A DNA stretch of 64,000 bases from Candidatus Hoaglandella endobia. Lineage in GTDB: Bacteria; Pseudomonadota; Gammaproteobacteria; Enterobacterales; Enterobacteriaceae. How positions within the stretch are numbered: position 1 is the first letter of the stretch; each line of letters begins with the position of its first letter. The position numbers and the translations under genes are program-made. This document shows, piece by piece, positions 2,505 to 33,249 of the stretch. The stretch is taken from NCBI RefSeq assembly GCF_900044015.1, contig NZ_LN999835.1, positions 522,365-586,364 on the forward strand. The letters run 5' to 3'. The notes below the pieces were generated by a model. It saw only the letters and a list, made by a program, of their open reading frames with translations. It did no database searches and was not told where the DNA came from.

Positions 2505-2542
2505 GACCATAAACTTATTAAGTTTCACGTTCCTTGCTTCCC

Positions 2543-2596
2543 TGCCCAAAGTTGTCCTCTGGACAGGAGGCTGAATAATCCGTAAGGAGCAGTTCT
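2543..2596 (+). promoter_or_regulatory. rpsF leader, possible S6:S18 autoregulatory element
   Basis: The stretch before rpsF has a small hairpin (TTGTCC-TCT-GGACAG), then GGAGGCTGAATAATCCG and the Shine-Dalgarno TAAGGAG. It closely resembles what I recall of the E. coli rpsF leader, where a CCG-containing motif is bound by the S6:S18 complex to repress the operon. The similarity is judged by eye; the fold was not computed. Confidence 0.5.
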
Positions 2597-2998
2597 GTGC
2601 GTCATTATGAAATAGTTTTTATGGTACATCCTGATCAAAGCGAACAAGTTGCTAGCATGATCGAACGCTACATTGCACTTATTACTAGCGCTGCAGGTAA
2701 GATCCATCGCCTAGAAGATTGGAACCGTCGTCAGCTAACTTACCCAATCAATAAACTGCACAAAGCTCACTATGTTCTGTTAAACATAGAAGCTTCACAG
2801 GAATTAATCGACGAGCTAGAGACCTCTTTCCGCTTCAACGATGCAGTAATTCGCAGCATGATTATGCGTGTTAAACACGCAGTGACTGAAGCGTCTCCAA
2901 TGGTAAAATTGAAAGATGAACGCCGTGAGCGCCGTGAAGACTTCGTTACTGAGAGCACTGAAGACTCTGATGCTAGTAGAAATACTAAAGCAGAATAG
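2597..2998 (+). CDS. rpsF: 30S ribosomal protein S6
   Basis: S6 binds the 16S rRNA central domain as a heterodimer with S18. The start is GTG at 2597, giving [18 protein letters not shown] as in E. coli, with TAAGGAG 6 bases upstream. The length of 133 is normal for the family (131-135). The core (1-100, one ferredoxin-like fold) is highly conserved and ends in the charged RRERREDF segment. The acidic tail of the E. coli protein, where glutamates are added by RimK, is shortened and mixed ([16 protein letters not shown]). First gene of rpsF-priB-rpsR-rplI. Confidence 0.97.
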
Positions 2999-13022: not shown

Positions 13023-13056
13023 TTTCCCCCGTAGGAGAATGGGCCAACGGGGGAAA
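13023..13056 (-). terminator. Hairpin downstream of cspC
   Basis: TTTCCCCCGT and ACGGGGGAAA form a perfect 10-bp stem around a 14-base loop. It lies 64 bases beyond the cspC stop in the direction of cspC transcription, so it probably terminates cspC. The T run after the stem is weak. Confidence 0.5.
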
Positions 13057-13119
13057 TAATATTAATTACCAGCTGCTAATTATTCTATTTATCCTATTAT
13101 CGCTGTGAACTGAATTTAT

Positions 13120-13329
13120 TCACAGGGCAGTTACATTAACGGCTGAAGGGCCTTTCTGGCCATCTTGGATTTCGAATTCGACATTTTGTCCTTCAATCAG
13201 AGTTTTAAAGCCATTACCTTGAATAGCAGAAAAGTGAACAAACACATCTTTACTACCATCGGCCGGAGTGATAAAACCAAAACCTTTAGACTCATTGAAC
13301 CACTTCACTTGACCTTTGATCTTTGCCAT
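13120..13329 (-). CDS. cspC: Cold shock-like protein CspC
   Basis: Five-stranded OB-fold RNA chaperone and antiterminator. It has 69 residues and differs from E. coli CspC at only a few positions. RNP1 (KGFGFI) and RNP2 (VFVHF) are intact. It begins [20 protein letters not shown], which distinguishes it from CspE (MSKIKGN). AAGGAA lies 10 bases before the ATG. The upstream yobF frame overlaps its first 38 bases. Confidence 0.97.
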
Positions 13330-13474
13330 CTTGCATATTTCCTTTATAGTGTTGAAATCGCTTTTTATCGATACAGAGATAAACTGGAGTCGTTACTGCT
13401 TGAGGCACTACAATGAAGCGGTATGCAACGAATTCGTCTACACGCAAAACTTCTTTACTGAAAATGCTACTCAT
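13292..13474 (-). CDS. yobF: YobF-like small protein upstream of cspC
   Basis: The first 24 residues, [10 protein letters not shown] then VAYRF and P, match the start of E. coli YobF (MCGIFSKEVL, VEYRF, P), a 47-residue stress-related protein encoded just before cspC. The rest does not align. Here the frame is 60 residues long and runs 38 bases into cspC instead of stopping before it, so the 3' part has probably been altered by decay. Position and start support a real or recently real gene. Its function is not known. Confidence 0.6.
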
Positions 13475-14038
13475 ATACAGAACTATACCTAATTTTACCC
13501 AACTGCTTTATCACATACTCTGTAATCAATGGCAAGCCATTTTTAATTATAATCGATGATTATCGTACATGCTGAGTATCTAAACTAGACCAAATATCGT
13601 GGGTTAACCTTTGCTTAGGTTGCCAAAAGAGGGCATAATAGGTTATTTACCCCCTGATTTATAGTTTATTATTTGTTCCTCTCATATCATTCATCAATCT
13701 GTCTGCGCTAACAGTGTAGCGTAATTATAAGCCAACCGGTTTTCAGATTGTACCGCTAGACGAAAATATCAGTATCGATAAAAACTGCATATATAATCAT
13801 GGGTTAAATGATAAAACTACAATGTAAGCGAGGGCAGACATGAGCTTTATTTATAACTTTATTTACATATAGTTAGTTATATAGTATATATAGGTATAAT
13901 ATATAGGTAGATATGCTGCCTCAAGCTACAGCTGCTCCGTGCGGCAGCTGTATTATAGCTTCATGCCAGAAGGTATTATACTACTGGCCTATGATCACTA
14001 AATTTTCTCACTACATTCAATTGTAGTGCTTATTGAAC
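13475..14038. other. yobF-glyQ gap with two strong hairpins
   Basis: No protein relic recognised. At 13927-13952 TACAGCTGC and GCAGCTGTA form a perfect 9-bp stem with an 8-base loop. At 14009-14028 CACTACA-TTCAAT-TGTAGTG forms a 7-bp stem ending 10 bases before the glyQ ATG. No Shine-Dalgarno lies between this hairpin and glyQ. Promoters for yobF-cspC and glyQS must lie here, but I cannot place them firmly. Confidence 0.55.
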
Positions 14039-28415: not shown

Positions 28416-29750
28416 TTACAGAATAAAGCGACTCAAATCTTCGTCAGATACTAATTCATCTAGATGACTGCGAACGTAATTTACATCAATAGAAATAGTT
28501 TTACCATTCCACTCGCTGGCGTCATAGGAAATCTCTTCCATCAAACGTTCTAGCACAGTGTGCAGACGTCGTGCACCAATATTCTCAGTGCGCTCGTTTA
28601 CTTGCCAGGCAGCTTCAGCAATACGCTTGATACCGTCCTCAGTAAAGTTAATATTCACTCCTTCTGTAGCCATCAGCGCAATATATTGCCTAGTTAGTGA
28701 GGCGCTAGGTTCCGTCAGAATGCGTTCAAAATCTTCGGTCGTCAGCGCCTCCAGCTCAACTCTAATCGGCAAGCGCCCCTGCATTTCAGGTATAAGATCA
28801 GATGGGCTTGACACTTGGAAGGCGCCCGAAGCAATAAACAGAATATGGTCGGTTTTTACCATGCCGTGTTTAGTAGAAATAGTGCAGCCTTCCACTAGAG
28901 GAAGCAGATCCCGCTGTACCCCTTCACGTGAAATATCCGGACCGGATACCTCGCCGCGTTTGCAGATTTTGTCGATTTCATCAATGAAAACGATACCGTG
29001 CTGCTCTACCGCTTCGATTGCTTTTGCTTTAAGTTCTTCGAGATTTACTAGTTTGGCAGCTTCTTCTTCCACTAATAGCTTCATGGCTTCTTTGATCTTT
29101 ATTTTACGTGGCTTTTGTTTATGACCTGCAAGATTTTTAAACATCGATTGTAACTGGTTGGTCATCTCCTCCATACCAGGAGGTGCAGTAATTTCTACCC
29201 CTATTGGCGCCTCAGCAAGATTTATTTCAATCTTTTTATCGTCTAGTTGGCCTTCACGTAATTTCTTACGAAAGTTTTGGCGCGCGTTGGATAGTTCACT
29301 GCTCTCTTCCGGCTGGCCCCAGTTATTTTTAGCTAACGGGATCAATACGTCAAGCACCCGTTCTTCCGCCAGCTCTCCAGCAAGCAAACGATTCTGTTCA
29401 ATAGATTGAAGGCGTATCATTTTAACCGCCGTATCGGTTAAATCGCGGATAATAGAATCAACTTCTTTACCTACATAGCCGACCTCAGTAAATTTAGTAG
29501 CTTCTACTTTGATGAACGGAGCATTAGCTAGTTTTGCTAGGCGACGAGCAATTTCTGTTTTACCGACCCCTGTCGGGCCAATCATAAGAATATTTTTGGG
29601 TGTCACTTCATGGCGCAGTGCTTCATCATCTATTTGCATGCGACGCCAGCGGTTCCGTAACGCGATAGCTACTGCTCTCTTAGCGTTGTGTTGGCCTACG
29701 ATATAACTATTAAGTTCACTAACTATTTTTTTTGGAGTTATTGCAGACAT
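28416..29750 (-). CDS. hslU: HslU ATPase of the HslUV protease
   Basis: AAA+ unfoldase that feeds HslV. ATG 29750 ([20 protein letters not shown]) is preferred over the ATG two codons earlier because TAAGG is then about 6 bases upstream. It has 444 residues (E. coli 443). Walker [10 protein letters not shown], Walker B VFIDEIDK, the I-domain insertion (about 110-240), the pore loop GYVG and the C-terminal RFIL needed to activate HslV are all present. It lies 10 bases after hslV in one operon. Confidence 0.97.
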
Positions 29751-29760
29751 GTTCATAGCC

Positions 29761-30291
29761 TTACTTTTTAGACGTTAATTCTTCAATGGTGTAGCAATGG
29801 TTAGTATATATACAGATATCAGCTGCAATTTCCAACGATTTTTCGACTATCTTGCGAGCGCCAAAATCAGTATTTTCTAACAGAGCTCGCGCCGCAGACT
29901 GCGCATATGGACCGCCAGAACCTATAGCAATAAGATCATTTTCTGGCTGTATAACGTCACCATTACCGCTAATAATAAGTGAGTCTTTTTCATTAGCCAC
30001 CGCTAGCAGCGCTTCTAGACGACGCAGCATACGATCAGTACGCCAGTCTTTAGCTAATTCAACAGCAGCTTTAAGTAAGTAGCCCTGATGAACTTCTAGT
30101 TTCCGTTCAAATAGTTCAAATAGAGTAAAAGCATCTGCAGTGCCGCCGGCGAAACCTGCTATTACTTTTTCATTAGATAGTCGACGGACTTTACGCACGT
30201 TACCCTTCATAACGGTATTACCCAGAGTAGCCTGTCCATCACCACCGATAACAATATGCCCATTGCGGCGTACACTGAGGATTGTTGTCAC
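29761..30291 (-). CDS. hslV: HslV peptidase subunit
   Basis: N-terminal-nucleophile threonine peptidase of the HslUV complex. The start decides the catalytic residue: GTG 30291 followed by ACA ACA places Thr directly after the initiator Met, as required, whereas the TTG two codons upstream would bury it. TAAGGGG lies 7 bases before the GTG. It has 176 residues, equal to E. coli. [20 protein letters not shown] and [16 protein letters not shown] are conserved. A sigma-32 promoter lies upstream (30371-30395). Confidence 0.97.
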
Positions 30292-30370
30292 GATCAACCC
30301 CTTAACTGGGAATAGTAATCATAATAATTAGTGCCCCGCGTAAATAACACTGAGTAACGATGCCTACTAA

Positions 30371-30395
30371 ATAGGGCAACATTATGAAATTTCAA
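30371..30395 (-). promoter_or_regulatory. Sigma-32 heat-shock promoter of hslVU
   Basis: On the minus strand TTGAAA (30395-30390) is followed after 13 bases by CCCTAT (30376-30371), close to the RpoH consensus TTGAAA - CCCCATNT and correctly spaced. Transcription would start about 70 bases before hslV. It sits inside the remains of the ftsN 3' end. Confidence 0.65.
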
Positions 30396-30424
30396 CCCTT
30401 CCTGCAGTAAACGGTAACCTAATA

Positions 30425-30621
30425 ACCTAGTAAAATTTTAGTAGAAGTTTTTCGATGCTGGTATTGTCGGCATAGTGGGTAACTCTAGAGATAATTATGA
30501 ATCGATCGCCTATAACTAGTTATTCTTTTTAACCGCGCCATTCTTAGGGCTTTACCGGATAAAATTAGTCTAACCGGCGGTATTCGGCACAGTAACTAGC
30601 TGTTCGGCTAGTGGTGGTTTA
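30425..30621 (-). pseudogene. Decayed 3' part of ftsN
   Basis: In the same frame as ftsN after its stop, the minus strand reads KPPLAEQLVTVP, resembling QQPTQLVEVP in the periplasmic stalk of E. coli FtsN. Further on, ADNTSIEKLLLK (about 30430-30471) weakly recalls the end of the SPOR domain (ADSTLNRLK). Several stops interrupt the region. The first match is moderate, the second weak. Confidence 0.5.
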
Positions 30622-30644
30622 GTGAGGATCAATTATCAAGCTAC

Positions 30645-30929
30645 TCATCTTTCTAGCTCTTTGAGATAACGCCAGTGTTCTTTTAGTTTGAGCGGCAAAC
30701 TGTTTCTAGCAGCTTGCTTGCTACGGTTTGGCATGACGATTTCCGCCTCTTTTTTACGTATGATGCTACAATAAAAACTACTGATCAAAGTCATCAATAC
30801 GACGGCAACAATTGAGAGCATCAATTTGAACATGCCGAAAAAAAAGGAACATTTTTTTCTATACAAGCTGCTTTTTTTTCGTTTAGTTCTCGAGAACTTA
30901 TCGAGGCTTACATAGTCTTTTTGTGCCAC
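30645..30929 (-). CDS. ftsN: Minimal FtsN, cytoplasmic tail, membrane helix and essential peptide only
   Basis: FtsN triggers septal peptidoglycan synthesis. E. coli FtsN has 319 residues; this one has 94. MAQKDYV keeps the Asp5 region that contacts FtsA, followed by a basic tail, a membrane helix (about 30-54) and LPLKLKEHWRYLKELER. The last segment corresponds to the essential E. coli peptide 75-93, with Trp86, Tyr88 and Leu92 equivalent to Trp83, Tyr85 and Leu89. The stop follows immediately. The long stalk and the SPOR domain are lost. Three homopolymer runs (A8, T7, T8) lie at 30838-30890. Its place between hslV and priA is that of E. coli ftsN; cytR is missing. Confidence 0.88.
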   Translation of the reverse strand: MAQKDYVSLDKFSRTKRKKSSLYRKKCSFFFGMFKLMLSIVAVVLMTLISSFYCSIIRKKEAEIVMPNRSKQAARNSLPLKLKEHWRYLKELER

Positions 30930-31041
30930 TATCGTTTTACGAACATTTAGATATTCTTCAGTTTTATTACTGCAGTTTAAAGTTTAATTAGCCTCATGCA
31001 AGTTAGGGATTGTGGTTGCAAATATTACAACAGCTATTAGC

Positions 31042-33249
<2,208 letters not shown>

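Follow-up and report, generated by a model that had tools for sequence, protein, structure and literature searches.

The 64,000-nucleotide stretch of the chromosome of the mealybug symbiont Candidatus Hoaglandella endobia analyzed here (contig NZ_LN999835.1, positions 522,365 to 586,364; hereafter the window) contains a 94-codon gene that, judged from its sequence, very likely is a functional ftsN reduced to the membrane anchor and the septal-activation peptide of this cell division protein. The encoded protein appears to keep its short cytoplasmic N-terminus and a single membrane anchor, followed by a linker whose length is conserved and by the septal-activation peptide (Table 1). The original prediction had placed a 94-residue FtsN frame at this position, and this was borne out by a GTG start, by a match to the NCBIfam FtsN model NF008179 (residues 1-93 of the protein against positions 1-90 of 319 of the profile, E 4.4e-14), and by priA and hslV-hslU as neighbors. 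A GTG start is common to all 30 ftsN loci read in one set, this genome (G000) included. The gene order priA-ftsN-hslV-hslU was also found at another locus (L026), which is itself truncated. The FtsN profiles span 299-319 positions, of which the 94-residue protein covers the N-terminal part, and its scores stay below the curated whole-protein cut-offs (52.7 vs. 525 bits and 24.6 vs. 107.65 bits); a Pfam search of the protein gave nothing at E ≤ 1. On the basis of its neighborhood and the N-terminal match, the protein is filed as a truncated FtsN orthologue and not as a full FtsN.

The KDY start of FtsN contacts FtsA, and the minimal protein begins with the same motif. A positive-inside orientation is indicated by 10 Lys or Arg residues among the 30 residues before the hydrophobic core and eight between the core and the peptide Trp, which sits 37 residues past the core. 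A structure model with helices at residues 3-65, 69-75, and 80-93 (predicted template modeling score 0.38) was built from one sequence and supports helix boundaries only. As had been predicted, Trp86, Tyr88, and Leu92 align with W83, Y85, and L89 of E. coli FtsN, which have been named crucial (PMC6325244) and proved the most sensitive positions in alanine scanning (PMC10390529). The essential segment of E. coli FtsN is L75-Q93 (PMC6325244), and the 94-codon frame stops two residues short of its mapped end. We infer that the minimal FtsN is expressed and that its peptide binds where FtsI meets FtsL within FtsQLBWI (for the binding site of the peptide in E. coli, see PMC10390529). Once bound, the peptide would activate FtsWI to build septal peptidoglycan, and the KDY start would communicate with FtsA.

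The N-terminal FtsN profile was matched in 306 of 392 genomes of the family. A second search of 35 small genomes gave 34 matches, from which 30 loci were read; further loci were taken from G000, G038, G029, and G356. Relatives were then compared in a sample of 80 genomes: the 39 that had a match and a size not above 2.4 Mb, and 41 drawn from the 86 in which the profile found nothing. Two of the 39 were excluded as spurious or unreadable (G033, G254) and three as dead (G018, G084, G299), and G221 was retained despite a stop near the start of its match (start broken). The peptide is kept in 34 of the 80 genomes. In 10 of them, the FtsN frame also encodes a SPOR domain, which for G082 and G086 was judged from coordinates only; in the other 24, from 17 genus codes, it does not. 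Across these 24 truncated proteins, Trp, Tyr, and Leu of the peptide are the only invariant columns, and in none of the 24 genes does the frame end ahead of the position corresponding to residue 91. Thus, the comparison with relatives that had been set beforehand came out as predicted, with an open frame, the three residues invariant, and no stop upstream of this position. Asp5 is present in 21 of the 24, and the spacing between hydrophobic core and peptide Trp is 26-37 residues in 23 (for G125 it is 36, using the peptide Trp at residue 86).

The stalk and SPOR domain had been predicted to be gone, and indeed a SPOR search of the whole genome gave no match at E ≤ 0.01. The accompanying claim of faint in-frame remnants downstream did not hold, as the best score of the spacer against the tails of seven full-length FtsN was 29, which was matched or beaten by 134 of 200 dinucleotide shuffles. 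Another SPOR match is retained in 11 of the 24 genomes with truncated FtsN; 13, this genome included, have none. In one genome (G110, locus L067), the ftsN stop is followed by a SPOR stretch that itself contains a stop (G110:C1:82919-83110), an intermediate stage of tail erosion. The SPOR domain, in free-living bacteria a binder of denuded septal glycan, was lost, and the stalk would have eroded passively until erosion reached the peptide protected by selection.

Signs of such protection were found in the substitution pattern. Between the ftsN of this genome and that of a relative with full-length FtsN (G004), the ratio of nonsynonymous to synonymous differences per site (pN/pS; Nei-Gojobori method, conserved part of the gene) is 0.47 (bootstrap 0.35-0.64), with substitution rates dN and dS of 0.39 and 1.47, and against five other relatives it is 0.49-0.66. 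Against full-length relatives, the ratio for this gene is thus below 1. Among seven within-genus pairs of truncated genes, the upper bound stays below 1 in five (0.40, 0.43, 0.54, 0.67, 0.49). In neutral simulations starting from G004, with 20,000 trials, an open frame with Trp, Tyr, and Leu was kept in fractions of 0.0019, 0.00005, and 0 of the trials at divergences of 0.35, 0.51, and 0.65, respectively, where 0.51 is the observed third-position divergence.

The proposed partners of the peptide are also in place. Frames for FtsZ, FtsA, FtsQ, FtsL, FtsB, FtsW, FtsI, and AmiB are present in this genome, AmiB scoring 523.9 bits (cut-off 532) on a frame truncated by the start of the locus. In the 80-genome sample, FtsQ free of internal stops occurs in 31 of the 34 peptide-bearing genomes vs. 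four of the 46 without peptide; the corresponding counts are 33 vs. six for FtsB, 34 vs. eight for an amidase match, and 34 vs. 26 for FtsA. An FtsQ match interrupted by stops was scored as absence (G084, G097), as was an FtsB match that contained stops or fell below the cut-off (G084, G114, G299, G104); FtsB was scored as present in G356, despite one stop, and in G224 and G421, where it is partial. The Fisher p-value (1.7e-14 for FtsQ) overstates the evidence, because the genera are related and detection losses are shared; the detection of short, diverged proteins may fail jointly in AT-rich genomes. In G084, the ftsN, FtsQ, and FtsB stretches all contain stops.

Several observations weigh against a functional minimal FtsN. 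The L75-P79 (PPxP) stretch of the E. coli protein, which has been modeled as binding the FtsI head (PMC10390529), reads LPLKL here, two of its three prolines being replaced by Leu. Four homopolymer runs of A or T, each 6-8 bases long, lie in the ftsN gene, and a promoter-like site on its strand was sought in 30250-31300 and not found. Two of the seven within-genus pairs (0.76, 0.78) are indistinguishable from a pN/pS of 1, and the relatives used for pN/pS are not close, so part of the constraint may predate the truncation. In three relatives (G018, G084, G299), stops interrupt the matched stretch and the gene looks dead, and two others (G044 and G208, from the genus code of G289 and G356) lack an FtsN-type frame with WxYxxxL upstream of hslV. 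The co-occurrence with FtsQ is broken in both directions: FtsQ is kept in G018, G080, G116, and G208, where no live peptide was detected, and the peptide is kept in G097, G224, and G421, where an unbroken FtsQ is missing. A decaying ftsN pseudogene whose N-terminal part is open by chance would suit the complete loss of the tail, the three relatives with internal stops, and the long A and T runs. However, chance openness is hard to reconcile with the neutral simulations (at most 0.0019 of trials), with a pN/pS of 0.47, and with Trp, Tyr, and Leu kept in 24 of 24 truncated genes beside retained partner genes, and a pseudogene is unlikely.

The position of the stop is a separate matter. It had been taken as a sign of a naturally minimized activator rather than of decay; the relatives and the pN/pS values speak for the minimized activator, but the stop position alone is no sign of selection. 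Averaged over genus codes, the tail past residue 91 measures 23.5 codons vs. 11.3 expected for random stops, and 99.96% of neutral geometric simulations gave a mean tail as small or smaller. Since the tails are no shorter than the neutral expectation, the stop position can be explained without selection acting on it, and the stop sits where passive erosion met a selected boundary. Alternatively, the stop may have become fixed because a smaller FtsN was better, either cheaper or freed from SPOR control. The mean tail past the peptide is at most four codons in six of the 17 genus codes, and a single stop position was found in all 30 Buchnera loci read (see below), though the latter may be one inherited event. 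With tails longer than neutrality predicts, and passive erosion sufficing, such selection for shortness is improbable.

A different function of the peptide was also considered. Its main target might now be the bifunctional synthase PBP1b, or some other partner, instead of FtsQLBWI. In E. coli, W83L weakens the binding and activation of PBP1b in vitro (PMC6325244), and FtsQ is undetectable in two of the genomes with truncated FtsN; but the peptide co-occurs with FtsQ and FtsB, and a main role outside FtsQLBWI appears doubtful. Loss of the SPOR domain for want of its ligand, the amidases that make denuded glycan having been lost first, would agree with the binding of SPOR domains to denuded glycan (PMC10390529, PMC9116674) but is highly improbable, since AmiB is kept here and all 34 peptide-bearing genomes have an amidase match: the amidases are retained, so ligand loss does not explain SPOR loss, and amidase loss as its cause was rejected because it is contradicted by the presence of the genes.

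Beyond this genome, we consider it probable that an FtsN of anchor plus peptide is a recurrent end state of genome reduction that was reached more than once, that natural deletions set the right edge of the essential peptide near residue 91-92 and point to the equivalents of W83, Y85, and L89, and that Buchnera bears a cryptic version, of 70-90 codons where the start is conventional, with its peptide under purifying selection. In a tree of FtsA, this genome falls among genomes with full-length FtsN, including G004, G026, G082, and G142 (support 90/74). At least 11 changes between full and truncated FtsN are required on this tree, and a single clade of truncated rows is rejected (approximately unbiased test, p-AU 0.0009). 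Well-supported branches, however, force only two changes for the full group, and five for the truncated group if the five rows lacking a live peptide are counted against it. Composition is odd or branches are long in several rows, and the number of origins is therefore uncertain.

One genus code of the survey (g102) was taken as Buchnera, because 6,000 compared bases of the 7.6-kb plasmid of G421 match the leucine plasmid of Buchnera aphidicola (Aphis helianthi) at 100% identity. The FtsN profile, which includes the peptide so that genomes that lost the peptide would be missed, matched 32 of 36 Buchnera genomes at E ≤ 1, with no match in G426, G365, G104, and G447. From these matches, 30 loci (L161-L190) were read; G299 (internal stop) and G425 (E 0.07) were not counted. 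All 30 frames lie between rpmE and hslV, upstream of the hslV motif, and in all of them WxYxxxL is kept and the stop follows exactly one residue after position 91. The last 19 codons, which encode the peptide, show a pN/pS of 0.32 vs. 0.87 in the preceding codons; for the whole stretch, the pairwise median is only 0.73 (432 pairs), and 0.87 in the 96 least diverged pairs. A conventional start (ATG, GTG, or TTG with a frame of at least 65 codons) exists in only 15 of the 30 loci, whose frames have 70-90 codons. The other loci lack such a start or are interrupted within the A-rich cytoplasmic part. The best NCBIfam match of the G421 protein is FtsN, at 3.5e-6 and 26.7 bits vs. a cut-off of 525, and scores so far below the curated cut-offs could explain why genes of the Buchnera type have been missed. 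FtsQ matches are absent from all four Buchnera genomes of the 80-genome set. At two Buchnera loci (L161 in G421 and L162 in G224), the FtsN peptide is retained, FtsQ is undetectable, and FtsB is matched only partly.

A shrunken ftsN of this kind is already in print, and the idea is not new. A 2016 report on strains SCc and STs of Serratia symbiotica described shrinkage of ftsN and argued for its function in the same way, on the grounds that E. coli FtsN 1-119 is sufficient for division; most such diminutions were said to be common in small and tiny genomes (PMC5013485). The 94-codon ftsN resembles that case in the loss of dispensable domains and the conservation of the remainder. It differs in belonging to another lineage and in a stop that directly follows the peptide; the present analysis also quantified residue invariance, stop positions, pN/pS, and the co-occurrence of partners. 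In a Pantoea symbiont, ftsN has been called degraded (PMC5091035). For Buchnera, a review on obligate intracellular bacteria lists ftsN in 0% of the genomes it tabulates (38 and 15), and states that none of the bacteria described, Buchnera included, encodes FtsN (PMC10591338). No report of FtsN in Buchnera or in the present lineage was found in the literature searched, with subscription journals and preprints outside its scope, and the FtsN-type frame in Buchnera is the part that is possibly new.

Full-length Enterobacterales FtsN (NF008179/TIGR02223) has the same KDY start, membrane helix, and LPPKPEERWRYIKELE-type peptide as the minimal protein, but 273-339 residues and a SPOR domain in the full-length loci read, whereas the minimal FtsN has 94 residues and no SPOR domain. 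Truncated versions of E. coli FtsN that retain the same parts are its laboratory counterpart. E. coli strains with such truncations still have other SPOR proteins; the minimal ftsN, in contrast, is natural and lies in a genome without any SPOR match. Should minimal FtsN prove widespread, the trigger of division would have been conserved down to a single peptide, and the genes would form a natural mutagenesis set for the interface of FtsN and FtsQLBWI that includes genomes without a SPOR match and the four Buchnera genomes without an FtsQ match. An annotation blind spot is also suggested, as the cut-offs of full-length profiles are far beyond the reach of such genes.

Table 1. Features of the minimal ftsN locus (window coordinates).
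Feature	Position	Strand	Remarks
priA, upstream neighbor	31042..33240	(-)	
Terminator-like hairpin, end of priA	31028..31051	(-)	weak: 1 found vs. 0.7 mean in shuffles
Minimal ftsN, 94 codons	30645..30929	(-)	GTG start, TGA stop
Lys4-Asp5-Tyr6 codons, cytoplasmic KDY start	30912..30920	(-)	
Membrane helix core, residues 31-49	30783..30839	(-)	mean Kyte-Doolittle 2.32
Septal-activation peptide LPLKLKEHWRYLKELER, residues 78-94	30648..30698	(-)	Trp86, Tyr88, Leu92
Spacer between ftsN stop and hslV, 347 bp	30298..30644	(-)	stalk/SPOR remnant not detectable
hslV, downstream neighbor	29761..30297	(-)	
hslU	28416..29756	(-)	

Some minor observations were made in passing. At locus L092, 44 bases separate ftsQ from murC, and ddlB therefore is not located there; murD at the same locus (L092:9241-10606, minus strand) is split over two overlapping frames near its 3' end, by a frameshift or an assembly error. 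The host genome consists of a chromosome of 628,221 bp and two small contigs of 3,244 and 5,248 bp. In this 0.63-Mb genome, two RNA elements in the window are retained above the gathering score, a cspA thermoregulator (13056-13480, minus strand) and an RpsF leader (2513-2599, plus strand). The 3,244-bp contig (G000:C2, locus L159), probably a plasmid, carries, at 214-1944 and 2169 onward, proS, the only copy in the genome above the family cut-off, and beside it a 199-codon frame that, judged by eye, resembles phosphoheptose isomerase.
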